Below are positions 2,423 to 14,666 of a DNA stretch of 33,411 nt, piece by piece (the stretch's first letter is position 1; each line of letters starts with the position of its first letter). Under the pieces are notes generated by a model. The model was not told the DNA's origin. It saw nothing but the letters and a program-made list of their open reading frames with translations, and searched no databases. This DNA is from Prochlorococcus sp. AG-686-P16 (GTDB taxonomy: Bacteria > Cyanobacteriota > Cyanobacteriia > PCC-6307 > Cyanobiaceae), in contig QCVY01000002.1 of the NCBI GenBank assembly GCA_003208695.1, forward strand, positions 1 through 33,411. The letters are read 5' to 3'. Both the position numbers and the translations under genes were made by a program.

Positions 2423-3187
2423 TTAGTTTAAAACTAATCCACCATCAACAATTAAATTTTGACCAGTTACTGCTCTCGACCAAGGGGATGCAAAAAATAA
2501 TACCGCATCTGAAAAATCCTCTATTGTTGTAACTTTCCTTAAAGGTGTGATACTAGAAATATATTCAAAAACACTTTCCGGAGTTCCCTTGCTGGCATCG
2601 GTTATTTTCAATAATCCTCCTGAAACCATATTTACTGTTATGTTAAATTGGCCTAGATCTATTGCTGCTGTTCTTGTAAGTGATAACAATCCGCCTTTAG
2701 CCGCTGTGTAATCATGGTAGGGAATTACTGGGTTTTGAAATAAATTAGTTCCAATAGTTACTACCCTTCCAAAAGAGTTATTTTTCATATTTGGAGTGAA
2801 GATATTGAGCAAGTTTAAAAATCCTTTTTGAGTAGTTTCGATTTGATTTTGAAAATCTTGCCATTCTATAGTATCTATTTTTTTTCTTTGATCACCATTA
2901 AAAATAAAGTCATTTATTGCATTATGGATTATTGAATCCACTGTAATATTATGACTTTCCAATTCCTTTTGCATTTTAGAAACTTGATCTTTTTCTCTAA
3001 TATCACCTTTTATTAAAATTACATTTTCTCCCAGTGAATCCGATAATTTTTTAGCGCTTTCAAATGATTTTCGATAATTGATAACTACTTTTGCTCCTTC
3101 TCGATGAAATGATTTTGCTATTTCGGAACCCAATCCTCGTCCTGCACCTGTTATTAGAACAGTTTGTTTTTCAATTGGTAAATTCAT
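2423..3187 (-). CDS. SDR-family oxidoreductase (FabG-like)
   Basis: 254 aa from the ATG at 3187. The reading frame stays open to 3259, but the family start is just before NLPIEKQTVLITG. It is a classical short-chain dehydrogenase with a Rossmann NAD(P) site TGAGRGLG near residues 13-20, an Asp-bearing second strand (IKGDIR), the asparagine region (HNAINDF), the active-site YTAAK with Tyr and Lys, and a C-terminal GQNLIVDGG motif typical of FabG-like members. The position 13 residues before the active-site Tyr, usually Ser, is Thr here (IGTNLF). The substrate is unknown. The gene stands alone. A bidirectional terminator lies about 170 bp upstream. Confidence 0.85.
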   Translation of the reverse strand: MNLPIEKQTVLITGAGRGLGSEIAKSFHREGAKVVINYRKSFESAKKLSDSLGENVILIKGDIREKDQVSKMQKELESHNITVDSIIHNAINDFIFNGDQRKKIDTIEWQDFQNQIETTQKGFLNLLNIFTPNMKNNSFGRVVTIGTNLFQNPVIPYHDYTAAKGGLLSLTRTAAIDLGQFNITVNMVSGGLLKITDASKGTPESVFEYISSITPLRKVTTIEDFSDAVLFFASPWSRAVTGQNLIVDGGLVLN

Positions 3188-3360
3188 AAATTTCATGTTC
3201 AGAGCAAAAACTGCTCTAATTTTTAATTTGACTTTAAAGTAAGAAGATCCATATATCAAATTTCATAATTCATATTTCATATTTTTCGATTAAAAGATTT
3301 ATTATTTTAATTTCAATTACCTTTAGGATAATCAATTATTCACTCAATTTTGAAGCATAG

Positions 3361-3388
3361 AAAAAGACCTCTAATAGAGGTCTTTTTT
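3361..3388. terminator. Bidirectional rho-independent terminator
   Basis: AAAAGACCTCT, a 3-nt loop, then AGAGGTCTTTTTT forms an 11-bp stem with A- and T-tracts on both sides. It lies between the SDR gene and the 3.4-3.6 kb region; no intact gene ends right before it on either strand. Confidence 0.75.
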
Positions 3389-3413
3389 AGTTTCAACTAA
3401 ATCAAGTGTTTCC

Positions 3414-3551
3414 TTGTTTCCACTTTTCAAGAAAAACATCTCTTACACAAATTCAAAACATGCCATAAATTTTGCTACACCTGAAGGGTATGAAGTATGT
3501 AATTTAATTGTCGCAGATACCCGTTATGACTTTCAGTTTTTATGTCAATAA
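3414..3551 (+). pseudogene. Possible gene remnant (45 codons, TTG start)
   Basis: An open frame from TTG encodes 45 residues with a protein-like C-terminal half (TPEGYEVCNLIVADTRYDF then FLCQ-stop). No family is recognised. It starts right after a terminator and overlaps the 3' end of the Yfr1-like RNA on the other strand, so it is more likely a decayed 3' fragment than a working gene. Confidence 0.25.
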
Positions 3552-3619
3552 AAAACACCCTAATTTAGAGAAAAGGGTGCTTAATTATCAGAAATTAGTG
3601 TGTGAGGAGTTTCTGATAA
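3546..3619 (-). ncRNA. yfr1: Yfr1-like small RNA
   Basis: On the minus strand a perfect 10-bp stem (TTATCAGAAA / TTTCTGATAA) encloses CTCCTCACACACTAA. A short spacer and a terminator hairpin (CACCC / GGGTG, 3555-3579) with a run of six T follow. ACTCCTCACACA is, as established knowledge, the ultraconserved single-stranded motif of the cyanobacterial sRNA Yfr1, which pairs with outer-membrane porin mRNAs in Prochlorococcus. The size (about 65-75 nt) and the hairpin-motif-terminator order fit. A possible -10 (CATAAT) lies at 3626-3621; if used, transcription would start within the first stem. Yfr1 is usually described next to guaB or trxA, which are not seen here, so this may be an extra or relocated copy. 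Confidence 0.7.
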
Positions 3620-3850
3620 AATTATGTTACTGGGGAATGGAATCAAATATCTAGAGTATTAATTACTAAAAATAATTTTATTAATAGTTTCTGGTCTAGA
3701 TAATCTGTAGATAAAATCTTATCTGCGAAAAGGAAATCACCGATTGTTGGGATTGGGCTATAAATTAATTAGTCCTTCAGAAATTTTAAGCCTTTAAGGG
3801 CTTGCGTATCTATAGCGATTTGGTTCTATATAAATAGGTTTCTTTTTATT

Positions 3851-3979
3851 ATGCAAATTTCAATTTTTGCAAAGGTAGTTTTCTTTTTAACTCTTTATGC
3901 AATTTCTGACCTTTCTATAAAAAATCATATTTTAAAGAAAACAATACGCAGAGCTAATAGAGCTAAATCAATTTTTTAA
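3851..3979 (+). CDS. Small membrane protein, 42 aa
   Basis: The ATG ORF has one hydrophobic helix at residues 4-20 (IFAKVVFFLTLYAISDL) and a strongly basic tail (KKTIRRANRAK). No SD is obvious. A second small hydrophobic frame begins overlapping its stop codon (TAATT). It fits the small-membrane-protein class common in this genome; the function is unknown. Confidence 0.55.
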   Translation: MQISIFAKVVFFLTLYAISDLSIKNHILKKTIRRANRAKSIF

Positions 3980-4820: not shown

Positions 4821-5054
4821 TTAAATATAAGTTTTCTTCCAATTCTCTTCTAATAATTTCTTATATTCTTTTCTTGCCTCCTCAATATTTTCTACACTGA
4901 TCCCTTTCATAACTGGTTTATTAGATCTCTTATAAACACATTCATAACTTATCTCTATTGCTTCTATACACGGAGAAGAATTACTTATATGTTTAAATAG
5001 TTTAAATACTTTTGTTCTTATCCTATCTTTATTAATGAGAGTATATTCTTCCAT
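4821..5054 (-). CDS. Unknown 77-aa protein, coupled to upstream membrane protein
   Basis: 77 aa, soluble, with charged helices at the C-terminus (ENIEEARKEYKKLLEENWKK). Its ATG overlaps the stop of the upstream 84-aa gene by one base (TAATG), which indicates translational coupling. Two Cys are present (residues near 29 and 39). No family recognised; the pair probably act together. Confidence 0.6.
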   Translation of the reverse strand: MEEYTLINKDRIRTKVFKLFKHISNSSPCIEAIEISYECVYKRSNKPVMKGISVENIEEARKEYKKLLEENWKKTYI

Positions 5055-5308
5055 TATTTCCCTTTCGATAAGAGATAATTCAAAAAAATACCACCAAAAA
5101 CTAATAAACCTCCTACTGCAACAAAAGAAAGTAAATCTAATATTGATTTATCTGTATTTACTTTTAAAAATGTAAAACAAAAAGCAACTAAAGGGAATAA
5201 TAATATCGCCTTAGGAATAAGTGATTGATGCCATTTCTTTAAAAAAGTATCTTCTTCTTCATTTAATTGTTGATATATCTTTTCTAACTTTTCTCTATCA
5301 TCTTCCAT
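5054..5308 (-). CDS. Small two-span membrane protein
   Basis: 84 aa. An acidic/charged N-terminal helix (about residues 1-26, rich in E, D and K) is followed by two hydrophobic helices (about residues 31-48 and 57-77) joined by a short loop, ending in SKGK. It is first in a two-gene unit with the 77-aa gene. A 15-codon upstream ORF with a good SD overlaps its start codon in another frame. Unknown function. Confidence 0.65.
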   Translation of the reverse strand: MEDDREKLEKIYQQLNEEEDTFLKKWHQSLIPKAILLFPLVAFCFTFLKVNTDKSILDLLSFVAVGGLLVFGGIFLNYLLSKGK

Positions 5309-5492: not shown

Positions 5493-5894
5493 TCATTCTT
5501 CAAATTCAGCTTCAAAACTTTTCATATCCTCATAGAGAGTATTAAAAGACTTTTCAATTAGATCTTTACCTTTCCTTGTAAGTTTCAAAAGTGTTCTTCT
5601 TTTATCTTTTGGATCTTGTTCTTTAGAAACCAACCCTAATCCTGCCTTACCCAGCCTATGATATCTGCTTATGTAATCTGTCATCCTTGAAGCACTAGCT
5701 TTACTCATATCAAAGTATTTTTCAATATCCTTCTTAGTACAATTTTGATAGGTTGCCACGTACCAAAATACTGCCATTGCCTGAAGTGGAACGTCTTGAG
5801 AATTATCTAACTTCATGAACATTGTGAGGACTCGCAAAAGGTTATATGATTCATTATCTATCTTTAATAAACCCTCTAATTTTGCTTGGGTCAT
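5493..5894 (-). CDS. MarR-family transcriptional regulator
   Basis: 133 aa, winged helix-turn-helix. The helices around residues 55-80 contain the recognition region (KKDIEKYFDMSKASASRMTDYIS), followed by the wing with the family signature (LVSKEQDPKDKRRTLLKLT and RKGKDL). The N- and C-terminal helices (residues 15-40 and 112-133) form the usual dimer interface. MarR proteins commonly repress nearby genes and respond to small ligands. The closest candidates are the downstream two-gene membrane unit and its own promoter; the hairpin at 5385 could be the site, but this is inference. Confidence 0.85.
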   Translation of the reverse strand: MTQAKLEGLLKIDNESYNLLRVLTMFMKLDNSQDVPLQAMAVFWYVATYQNCTKKDIEKYFDMSKASASRMTDYISRYHRLGKAGLGLVSKEQDPKDKRRTLLKLTRKGKDLIEKSFNTLYEDMKSFEAEFEE

Positions 5895-6049: not shown

Positions 6050-6346
6050 TTAAAGAGAATTAATATAGGGGGCAAGATTATTTTTCATAAATGTCGCCAC
6101 CAAAACAAATAATGAAAATATAAATAGCTGAACCATAAGCCAGGTAAATAATTTATAGTTTGGATTTTTGGTAAAAAGAGAAATATTTTTTGTAATAAGG
6201 GAATTAAGATGAAAAACTTCTGGAGTTTTTTCTTTAAATTTATTTTTTTGTTCAAATGAATCTTTATTTGAAGCTTTATCTAAAGACTCTACAAATTCTT
6301 TTTGTTTTTGAGAGAAATCATCATCAAGATTATCCATAGTCTTCAT
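6050..6346 (-). CDS. Single-pass membrane protein, unknown function
   Basis: 98 aa. A charged, Lys/Glu-rich cytoplasmic part (residues 1-45) is followed by one long hydrophobic helix (about residues 68-86, MVQLFIFSLFVLVATF) and a short tail. ATG codons at 6346 and 6337 are both possible. It is the last of three minus-strand genes with small gaps (7287 to 6050), suggesting one transcript. Confidence 0.6.
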   Translation of the reverse strand: MKTMDNLDDDFSQKQKEFVESLDKASNKDSFEQKNKFKEKTPEVFHLNSLITKNISLFTKNPNYKLFTWLMVQLFIFSLFVLVATFMKNNLAPYINSL

Positions 6347-6410: not shown

Positions 6411-6788
6411 CTAGGCTGAATATGTACCATCACTTTCTCTTCTGGCTTCAGCTAATAAAATCTCATGAAAAACCTTTTCGATCATATAAGCACTTTTTAT
6501 CCCATAGCATTTTTTATTTGAACTTTTCTCTAAGTCTCTTTGACTTATGTAATTGTATTCACAACAATTACATTTAATATCAATTTTCTTACGTTTATAA
6601 ATATCCATAGCCCTCTCAAAAATCCATTGCTGAACTCGTATATTTTTCCAACTGTCAAAATCAGACCATTCCGAAATATCCTTATCAAGAGTATCAATTA
6701 ATCCTTCAACATCTCTCACCTCGTAAAGAAGGGCTTCTTCTCTTGCCGACTGCTTTATGCCGATCGTATTAATAAGATTATGGTTCAT
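6411..6788 (-). CDS. Unknown protein with Cys cluster
   Basis: 125 aa, soluble, helical. Residues 73-95 contain CNCC followed about 18 residues later by another Cys (KKCYG), a possible metal-binding or redox site. The rest is charged, with a C-terminal AEARRESDGTYSA. It lies 31 bp downstream of the DUF985 cupin gene, probably in the same transcript. No family recognised. Confidence 0.6.
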   Translation of the reverse strand: MNHNLINTIGIKQSAREEALLYEVRDVEGLIDTLDKDISEWSDFDSWKNIRVQQWIFERAMDIYKRKKIDIKCNCCEYNYISQRDLEKSSNKKCYGIKSAYMIEKVFHEILLAEARRESDGTYSA

Positions 6789-8264: not shown

Positions 8265-9053
8265 TCAAAGTGATTGGTAATGTCCCAGCGGGCCTGGTCC
8301 TAATCCAATTTTATAAGATTTTATCAAGGATCTTTCAATAAATAATTTTGATTTTTGAATTGAATCTATAAGGTCAAACCCTAATGCTTGATATCCACAA
8401 ATTGCAGCACTTAAAGTACATCCACTACCATGCGTATTTTGAGTATTAATAAATTTATTTATAAACCACTTTTTCACTCCATTGACATCAAGATAAAAGT
8501 CCTTCCCTTTCATATCTTTCAATCCACCGCCTTTGATTAAAACTGCTTTAGCACCAAGTTTAATAATATTTTTTGCAGAGTTCTCTATATCTTCCTCATT
8601 CTTAATATCCAAATTTGATAAAAGATTTGCTTCAAAAATATTTGGAGTTACTAAATCGGCAATTGGTAAAAGTAATTTTTTGTAAGCATTAATTGCAGAA
8701 TCCTCAAGTAATTTAGAACCAGTTCTACTTACCATTACTGGGTCAATAACCTTTGGAATAGAAAAAGATTTCAGTTTTAAAGCTGTTTCATTAATAATAC
8801 TATCGTTTAGCAACATTCCAGTTTTTAAAGATTTGATATCAAAATCTGAAAATAAAGTATCAATCTGGCTTGTCAAAGTATCCTTATTTACAGCTTCTAC
8901 ACATTTTACTTCTACACTATTTTGAGCAGTAATACATGTAATCACAGAACATCCATGGACTTTAAGTGCCATAAAAGTTCTTAAATCGGCTTGAATACCT
9001 GCCCCTCCTCCTGAGTCACTACCACCTATTGAAAGAGCAATATTAGAATACAT
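8265..9053 (-). CDS. thiD: Hydroxymethylpyrimidine / phosphomethylpyrimidine kinase
   Basis: 262 aa, full length for ThiD. The ribokinase-like fold is marked by GSDSGGGAG (residues 11-19) with the substrate-binding region, DPVMVSRTGSKLL (residues 104-116), IKGGG (residues 173-177) and the anion-hole/catalytic HGSGCTLSAAI with Cys at about 212. ThiD phosphorylates HMP and HMP-P with ATP in thiamin pyrophosphate synthesis. It lies 35 bp downstream of tenA on the same strand, so the two form a pyrimidine-salvage operon. No TPP riboswitch was recognised upstream. Confidence 0.95.
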   Translation of the reverse strand: MYSNIALSIGGSDSGGGAGIQADLRTFMALKVHGCSVITCITAQNSVEVKCVEAVNKDTLTSQIDTLFSDFDIKSLKTGMLLNDSIINETALKLKSFSIPKVIDPVMVSRTGSKLLEDSAINAYKKLLLPIADLVTPNIFEANLLSNLDIKNEEDIENSAKNIIKLGAKAVLIKGGGLKDMKGKDFYLDVNGVKKWFINKFINTQNTHGSGCTLSAAICGYQALGFDLIDSIQKSKLFIERSLIKSYKIGLGPGPLGHYQSL

Positions 9054-9088: not shown

Positions 9089-9712
9089 TTAGAAATTTGA
9101 ATAAGCATTAAAAAAATCTAATTCCAGTTCCATAGCTTTTTTATATAAATTATTTGCCTGATTAATGTCAAATGGTTCTTGGTAATTATCAATTATTTTT
9201 TCAAGAGATTTTGCTAGATTATCAAAACTTTCATTAGAGTAAGTAAGAATCCATTCTTTATAAGGATTATTTAAAATCATATCCGATAAATTCTTTCCTA
9301 TCCAAGAATATAAACGCATGCAAGGAGTCATTGCAAACATTATTTCAACTGAACTTAGTTTTATGGAGACATCATAAAGGAAATCCGTGTAGTTCTTCGT
9401 CGCAGGTTTTATATAGTTAGTAGACAAATCAATCTCCCATTCTTTTGAATACGACTCATGAAGTATTAATTCATCAGACACACCAACTAAGAGTTGGCTT
9501 AAAGACTTAATTTCACTTTTATCTTTTGATTTAGAAATAGCTAATCCATATGCCTTAGCAAAGCTCTCTAAAAAAAAATAATCTTGAGCTATATAATCTT
9601 TAAAAATATTTCTTGGTAAATTTCCATTTCTTATCCCTTGAACAAATTTAGTGTTCAAGCTAAGCAAAGCTAGTTCAGAGTTATTTTCCCACAATTTTTT
9701 TGTGATTAACAT
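9089..9712 (-). CDS. tenA: TenA-family aminopyrimidine aminohydrolase (thiaminase II)
   Basis: 207 aa, all-helical, normal family length. Seen: LWENN at the N-terminus, the QDYFFLESFAKAYGLA helix (residues 43-58), and AMTPCMRLYSWIGK with the catalytic-type Cys at about residue 131. TenA proteins with this Cys hydrolyse degraded thiamin pyrimidines to HMP, which the next gene product (ThiD) phosphorylates. The short 35-bp spacing supports a shared transcript. In Prochlorococcus this would salvage thiamin breakdown products from seawater (inference). Confidence 0.9.
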   Translation of the reverse strand: MLITKKLWENNSELALLSLNTKFVQGIRNGNLPRNIFKDYIAQDYFFLESFAKAYGLAISKSKDKSEIKSLSQLLVGVSDELILHESYSKEWEIDLSTNYIKPATKNYTDFLYDVSIKLSSVEIMFAMTPCMRLYSWIGKNLSDMILNNPYKEWILTYSNESFDNLAKSLEKIIDNYQEPFDINQANNLYKKAMELELDFFNAYSNF

Positions 9713-13160: not shown

Positions 13161-14111
13161 CTAAAAACTTCCTAATTTTTCAACTGAATCTAATAATTTT
13201 AATGTGATGCCTTTTTCACTCATTGAATGACCTGCATCATCTACTATGATTAATTCTGAGTTTGTTAATTTTCTGCTAAGGTCCCAAGCACTCCTGACAG
13301 GACAGACTACGTCATATCTACCTTGAATTATTTTAGTTGGTATGTTTTCTATAATATTTATATTGTTCAAAATAAAATCTTCTTCCAAGAAGATCTTATT
13401 TATAAAATAATGACACTCTATTCTAGCAAAAGCATCTGAAAAGGAATTAGTTTTACTTTTTCCAACATCAATATCTCTTTTTATAAGATGACTTGTACAA
13501 AGTTCCCAATTTGTCCAGGCAGCCGCGGCTTTGGATCTAAGTTCAATATCTGGGGAAGTTAGATATTTATAAAAAGAAGCTATCAAATCAACCCTTTCAT
13601 CCTTCGGAATTACTGCAATATACTTTTCAAACTCTTCAGGAAATATCTCACTTGCGCCATATTGATAAAACCATAAGAGTTCAAATTTTCTACATAAAAA
13701 TATTCCTCTTAAGGTCATACTTAAAACTCTTGATGGATTTTTTATTGCATAAATCAAAGCTAGAGTAGATCCCCATGAACCCCCAAACAAATGCCAAGAA
13801 TCTATTTTCAAATCAACTCTTAATTTTTCAATATCATTTACTAGGTCGCCTGTTGTATTTTCTCTTAATTCTGAAAAAGGTCTTGAAGAGCCGCAACCTC
13901 TTTGATCAAATTGAATAATATCAAATTTTTGGGGATTAAAATATCGCCTATATCTTGGCTGACTTCCTCCTCCAGGACCACCATGAATTACTAATACCTT
14001 TTTACCTTTTGGATTTCCAGATCTTTCCCAATAGATAGAATGAATTTTACTTACCTGTAAAAAACCCTTTTCTCTTGGTTCGATGGAGGGGAATAAATTT
14101 TTCTCTTTCAT
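13161..14111 (-). CDS. pip: Proline iminopeptidase (alpha/beta hydrolase, S33)
   Basis: 316 aa, full length. Oxyanion region HGGPGGGS (residues 43-50), FDQRGCGSSRP (residues 68-78), nucleophile elbow GGSWGSTLAL with Ser at 112, a cap domain in the middle, the acid residue in GRYDVVCP, and the catalytic His in DDAGHS near residue 296. It releases N-terminal proline from peptides in the cytoplasm. The start at 14111 gives the typical EPREKGFLQVS N-terminus. An unlinked bidirectional terminator lies about 80 bp upstream. Confidence 0.92.
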   Translation of the reverse strand: MKEKNLFPSIEPREKGFLQVSKIHSIYWERSGNPKGKKVLVIHGGPGGGSQPRYRRYFNPQKFDIIQFDQRGCGSSRPFSELRENTTGDLVNDIEKLRVDLKIDSWHLFGGSWGSTLALIYAIKNPSRVLSMTLRGIFLCRKFELLWFYQYGASEIFPEEFEKYIAVIPKDERVDLIASFYKYLTSPDIELRSKAAAAWTNWELCTSHLIKRDIDVGKSKTNSFSDAFARIECHYFINKIFLEEDFILNNINIIENIPTKIIQGRYDVVCPVRSAWDLSRKLTNSELIIVDDAGHSMSEKGITLKLLDSVEKLGSF

Positions 14112-14222: not shown

Positions 14223-14666
14223 GATTTCTTATTTCCTACTTTCAGGATTTATAATACATAATATAAAGTCCATTTATTCATGAGCTTTAAATACGTGGAT
14301 AAGGGGATACATCTCGATAATTTTAGTCCTTTTTTGTCACTGGTAATTATAAAGCGAAGTCTTATCAGACTAATTGATTGAACTTTATTTATCGAGTAAT
14401 CCCATTGTCAGGAATACGCTTCCTATATTTGTAAATTTGCTAAATTTCAGGCGGACTATCAATCATTTAGATTGCCTCCTAACTCAACATTTATAAATTA
14501 CTACTATCTTGATTTCAAGTAAATCCGTAAATATGCTGATTTACTTTTTTATCGATTTGTACGAGAATTTTGATGCCTTGTTCGTTTTATGATATTTATC
14601 TAAATTGTAAATCTATACTTTTAATATTAAAGAAGTTTCTAGAAACCATAATTTAAGAGGCAGGAA
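14223..14666. other. Long intergenic region with an orphan terminator
   Basis: No ORF of useful length lies here. At 14517-14550 AAGTAAATC ... GATTTACTT is followed by a T-run, a plus-strand terminator with no gene before it. It is consistent with an unannotated small RNA between about 14230 and 14550. On the minus strand an AGGAGG motif precedes an 8-codon ORF (ATG at 14476 region), which could be chance. The 3' end holds the leader of the glycosyltransferase. Confidence 0.4.
14517..14550 (+). terminator. Orphan plus-strand terminator
   Basis: A 9-bp stem (AAGTAAATC / GATTTACTT) with a 12-nt loop and six T. It sits 115 bp upstream of the glycosyltransferase start and at least 400 bp after any plus-strand gene. 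Confidence 0.6.

Follow-up and report, generated by a model that had tools for sequence, protein, structure and literature searches.

Two small RNAs with a common motif are among the closest described systems. The defining features of Yfr1 are a motif that stays unpaired, with a stem-loop on either side, and a guaB/trxA context (PMC2190773), whereas Yfr10 of high-light (HL) Prochlorococcus carries the motif in the loop atop a stem and precedes a Yfr2 homologue (PMC6778093). Strain MED4 carries Yfr10, Yfr12 and Yfr18, and the published table of this strain places Yfr8 to Yfr11 together with Yfr2 in genomic island 1; its Yfr10 was verified by Northern blot and 5'RACE, with species of 78 nt and 270 nt, the longer of which is annotated as a Yfr10-Yfr2 precursor (PMC2518516). 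In MED4, Yfr10 binds mRNAs via a UCCU core, as shown by footprint for ppa, and atpA, atpC, csoS1 and csoS2 were specific targets in pull-down experiments. Yfr10 is bound more strongly by Yfr2, in whose presence the interaction with the ppa mRNA is lost, and Yfr10 is up in darkness and down in high light and in long nitrogen starvation (PMC6778093).

The window analysed here is a stretch of 33,411 nucleotides from Prochlorococcus sp. AG-686-P16. Three RNA families were found in it by cmscan at the gathering threshold, namely Yfr8, Yfr10 and Cyano-1. The Yfr10 match (RF02362) at 3617-3540 on the minus strand covers the whole model (1-78 of 78) with 102 bits, gathering threshold 43, and E = 9e-16. 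The first-pass annotation had recognized a minus-strand small regulatory RNA carrying the Yfr1 motif at this place, which the 102-bit Yfr10 match bears out, and had called it Yfr1; the RNA was thus rightly spotted and wrongly named. Judged by its sequence, the locus is a canonical yfr10 and an ordinary member of a known family. Its parts are:

3540..3617, minus strand: Yfr10 small RNA (RF02362), orthologue of MED4 yfr10, from cmscan, fold and tree
3585..3619, minus strand: 10-bp stem closing the motif loop (3619-3610 with 3594-3585), from the fold
3609-3595, minus strand: motif loop of 15 nt, from the fold
3600..3610, minus strand: Yfr1/Yfr10 11-mer motif ACUCCUCACAC (= ACTCCTCACAC), exposed in the 15-nt loop, exact match
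3547..3582, minus strand: terminator-like 9-bp hairpin and U run of Yfr10, from the fold

The minus strand from 3620 to 3546 folds with -18.8 kcal/mol (z = -5.6), and none of 200 shuffles was equally good, which confirms the architecture described earlier, a loop with ACUCCUCACACA on a 10-bp stem followed by a terminator. The first A of ACTCCTCACAC (3610-3600, minus strand) is the final base of the stem. The boundaries of the RNA are better set at 3617-3540 on the minus strand, as in the Rfam match and as indicated by the gene mapped in MED4. The terminator is absent from the list of the consensus terminator scan though visible in the fold, probably because its 12-nt loop exceeds the limit of the scan. 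Among 48 distinct stem-loops, conservation is higher in the loop than in the stem; all eight inner pairs are present in 21 of them, and compensatory changes are few (one C-G to G-C and three C-G to T-A, at pair 3). An ORF of 42 amino acids antisense to Yfr10 (3526-3654, plus strand) looks conserved between genomes because the RNA and its upstream region are conserved.

The protein comparison revealed that the window is collinear, in reversed direction, with MED4 336000-355000, and yfr10 lies at the same site as in MED4. The neighbourhood had been described as accessory-looking, and this island-like setting is right, as the region corresponds to MED4 genomic island 1. The following features define the comparison:

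13161-14111, 9089-9712, 8265-9053, 6411-6788, 6050-6346, 5493-5894, 5054-5308 and 3851-3979: window ORFs in MED4 order before Yfr10-Yfr2
1593-1775 and 1111-1431: window ORFs after Yfr10-Yfr2 in MED4-collinear order
14262-14488, plus strand: Yfr8/9 RNA (RF02360, 237 bits, cmscan), a second island-1 RNA
2423..3196, minus strand: short-chain dehydrogenase (SDR) gene (Pfam adh_short_C2, 1.3e-46), outside the RNA

The orientation of Yfr8 relative to Yfr10 is the same as in MED4, mirrored along with the region. A tree calculated from 129 records of Yfr10-Yfr2 pairs places the window pair in a 12-row clade with MED4 Yfr10 (99% SH-aLRT). Compared to MED4, a block consisting of the SDR gene and a small ORF (1983-2201) is inserted between Yfr2 and the ORF 1593-1775. 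The single-cell genomes AG-686-O05, AG-676-P15-1 and AG-686-M10 share this insertion, the contig of AG-686-M10 being permuted, and AG-679-M10 contains Yfr10-Yfr2-SDR without the small ORF. Since the surroundings of the inserted block are collinear, it is the neighbours that moved and not the RNA.

Some further observations concern the SDR gene. Its relatives in SAR86 and in another pseudomonadotal genome are 54-56% identical, which suggests a transfer between marine lineages. The permuted contig 63 of AG-686-M10 (5400 bp, Yfr10-Yfr2-SDR) has both ends within the SDR gene; a circle, a tandem duplication or an amplification chimera would each give this pattern. The SDR gene was considered as a cis target and rejected, as by eye no AGGAG stretch was found between Yfr2 and its start. 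Carriage by phages or viruses was likewise rejected; the window pair had no match in the phage collection, and a 24-nt segment of Yfr10 had no exact match in viral contigs.

About 90 nt downstream of Yfr10 and on the same strand starts a Yfr2 homologue, which had not been recorded in the first-pass annotation:

3385..3452, minus strand: Yfr2-family RNA (Rfam Cyano-1, RF01701), the tandem partner, cmscan 52.4 bits, gathering 41
3361..3384, minus strand: Yfr2 terminator (hairpin plus U run), from fold and sequence
3440..3450, minus strand: 5' anti-Yfr10 site of Yfr2, UUGUGUAAGAG in place of GUGUGUAGGAG, from pairing energy

The Cyano-1 model has four matches in MED4, which adjoin the published Yfr10, Yfr12 and Yfr18 or lie at Yfr3, and RF01701 is therefore the Yfr2 family. 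The partner at 3452-3385 resembles this family by its model score and differs from it in the 5' site UUGUGUAAGAG, where the complementarity to the Yfr1/Yfr10 motif, a functional feature, is damaged. Pairing of the window Yfr10 with its own Yfr2 reaches -8.5 kcal/mol, which is background as 19% of shuffles are equally good, whereas the other five Yfr2 copies of the genome reach -15.6 to -19.6 kcal/mol with the loop of this Yfr10. Over all pair records the Yfr10 loop and the Yfr2 5' region pair strongly, with a mean of -16.5 kcal/mol, and the window pair is the second weakest of the 129 records with -7.6 kcal/mol (the value of -8.5 stems from a slightly longer stretch). The pairing is weak because AAGAG replaces AGGAG at 3444-3440. 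In the main this is a single G-to-A change, seen in a single incomplete assembly, and it may be an amplification or sequencing error; the site is intact in relatives. That the window Yfr2 evolves faster was rejected, since its private substitutions, which are not in excess of those at other loci, give no sign of relaxed selection and no general acceleration was found. Covariation of motif and anti-motif within pairs was rejected as well, as there is little variation and the 6x6 pairing matrix shows no advantage of cognate partners. The spacer between both RNAs contains a conserved block (3503-3528, minus strand) that reads ACTGGCACATGTGACAATTAA in relatives, is altered in the window and is probably the promoter region of Yfr2. 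This block could be the published CGRE1 site.

The 52%-complete source genome encodes six Yfr10 and six Yfr2-type matches, which are arranged one-to-one on the same strand with Yfr10 first. They are located on the contigs C2 (the window), C9, C23 and C38, and two pairs on C5 face each other. Where they can be aligned the copies are about 72-92% alike and thus not assembly duplicates. According to the tree, four are of the Yfr12 type (C9, C23, C5a, C5b), one is of the Yfr18 type (C38) and the window copy is of the Yfr10 type. The assembly contains five exact copies of the 11-mer, each in a Yfr10 loop, and none of a reversed control pattern. The pairs Yfr12-Yfr4 and Yfr18-Yfr5 of MED4 have the same tandem architecture, and the source genome has both types, the window copy differing from them by its place in the Yfr10 clade. 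The motif of MED4 Yfr12 is CAUAUAC, while the Yfr12-type copies of the source genome keep an intact motif in three of four cases.

A Yfr2 anchor accompanies 58 of the 59 Yfr10 loci examined. Of 266 genomes searched in the genus, 259 had three or fewer Yfr10 matches and the remaining seven had four or more (six each in the source genome, G000, and in G162, five in G136, and four each in G153, G170, G210 and G284); these counts are lower bounds due to stricter filters, and most of the genomes are incomplete. The maximum of Yfr2-type matches outside the source genome is four among 101 genomes. Multiplicity of the pairs is already known, and six or more extends the known range. The window locus resembles Yfr10 of MED4 in its full-model sequence, the apical-loop motif, the terminator, the island 1 synteny and the tandem Yfr2 downstream. 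It differs by the SDR gene and small ORF inserted downstream and by the damaged anti-motif of the neighbouring Yfr2, and its genome has at least six pairs versus three in MED4.

Several arrangements of the additional pairs were observed. C5 and C9 share a duplicated segment of 563 bp that includes the RNA pair, at 87% identity (L045:8090-8652, L046:7775-8336); both copies lie near genes for PD-(D/E)XK nucleases and near short ORFs whose C-termini have a similar motif, YWxKECxDxPTxxxC. The two facing pairs on C5 are about 1.2 kb apart (L045:8131-9854). G284 contains two pairs on opposite strands of its C12 at a distance of 2.4 kb, and G136 two pairs in tandem (1096687, 1097536).

That the RNA is a second copy of Yfr1, or a Yfr1 which has moved from guaB/trxA into the island, as the first-pass annotation had offered, is very improbable. 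Both RNAs indeed have the 11-nt motif ACUCCUCACAC and probably part of the target set in common, and Yfr1 was not found elsewhere: the covariance-model check named in that annotation gave no match to Yfr1 (RF01116) in the assembly or at the locus, where even a permissive scan of 3340-3760 at E<=5 gave none. The absence from the 832-kb assembly says nothing in favour of a relocation, as guaB is missing as well from these 52% of a genome, and Yfr1 may be undetected only because this usual neighbour is missing. A single Yfr1 is present in 32 of 41 searched genomes of the genus, in many of these alongside Yfr10. The fold differs, too. The motif lies in an apical loop and not unpaired between two hairpins, and the neighbours are island-1 genes instead of the guaB-yfr1-trxA arrangement. 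What was found is the full Yfr10 model score, the apical-loop motif, a downstream Yfr2 homologue on the same strand and the position orthologous to MED4. As to its identity, the synteny with MED4 yfr10, the tree and the lack of a Yfr1 match at the locus refute both a second copy and a relocation, and the SDR gene, which the first-pass annotation had named with micro-ORFs as a neighbour, belongs to the inserted block. It is practically negligible that a chance stem-loop containing the motif is mistaken for a gene, as this has only the AT-richness of the genome in its favour and is opposed by the E-value of 9e-16, the conservation in 12 loci and the verified MED4 orthologue (PMC2518516).

Another possibility refines the assignment to yfr10 and does not replace it. 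The window Yfr2 may have lost its anti-Yfr10 site owing to the redundant Yfr2 copies, so that sponging of this Yfr10 would come only in trans. The second-weakest pairing of all pair records, its agreement with the shuffle background and the presence of six pairs in the genome speak for such a decoupled variant. Only one or two bases are changed, private changes are not in excess, a sequencing error is possible, and broken pairs occur elsewhere in the genus in either direction, some of them on the Yfr10 side. We regard this variant as rather unlikely. From the sequences compared, the window pair would be one case of an occasional decoupling and may also reflect a sequencing error.

The reading which we prefer, with a probability of about 0.93, is that of a yfr10 in its usual island-1 place with a tandem Yfr2, which would pair with mRNAs in trans, be set by light and be titrated in trans. 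For this reading the identity, the synteny, the tandem arrangement, the copy number and the conserved upstream element described below come from the present data, as does the prediction that the neighbouring partner has lost its pairing. The targets, the sponging and the light response are transferred from MED4 by orthology. With ACUCCUCACAC exposed in a closed loop, Yfr10 most likely uses this motif to pair with trans-encoded mRNAs, as in MED4. Light probably sets its level via its own promoter, and Yfr2 RNAs would titrate it. The neighbouring Yfr2 is predicted to be barely able to bind and hence to be a poor sponge, so that any titration should be provided in trans by the other Yfr10-Yfr2 pairs, of which there are at least five; which Yfr2 copies titrate we only infer. 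It is more speculative, and in our view quite doubtful, that the cassette has multiplied in some high-light Prochlorococcus lineages (at least six pairs per half genome) while single pairs decouple. If true, the ratio of sRNA to sponge would be set across loci and not within each cassette. Genomes with up to six tandem pairs, some with one partner broken, provide a test bed for the dosage of sRNA and sponge.

The regulator of yfr10 was reported as unknown in 2019 (PMC6778093). Two features upstream of the RNA are relevant here:

3642..3668, minus strand: conserved upstream element TAGTAATTAATACTCTAGATATTTGAT, candidate operator, from conservation; one match in the window and 0 in 100 shuffles
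3624..3629, minus strand: putative -10-like hexamer TAACAT (TANNNT) at -12 to -7, read from orthologue alignments

Inside the upstream element lies an imperfect dyad, AGTAATTAATACT, with its centre at -44 from the RNA start (3661). The conservation from -60 to -31 is 0.96-1.0 in yfr10-type loci, exceeds that of the Yfr10-Yfr2 spacer and extends to two loci with differing sequence further upstream. The C5a copy, a Yfr12-type RNA, is preceded by the same element. This region could be a binding site of the yfr10 regulator, for which it provides a concrete candidate, and its position would suit an activator that binds immediately upstream of a promoter lacking a -35 box. A wider regulon was rejected for the upstream 14-mer, as only two exact copies exist in the genome, both before Yfr10-family RNAs, and the number of matches with one mismatch is about that of the control if a tandem repeat on C44 is disregarded. 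This repeat (C44:4996-5126) has a period of 39 bp and contains TTAGTAATTAATTC. A MarR-like regulator is encoded near Yfr10 (5493-5894, minus strand); it is 98-100% identical in related islands and is a possible candidate for the yfr10 regulator.
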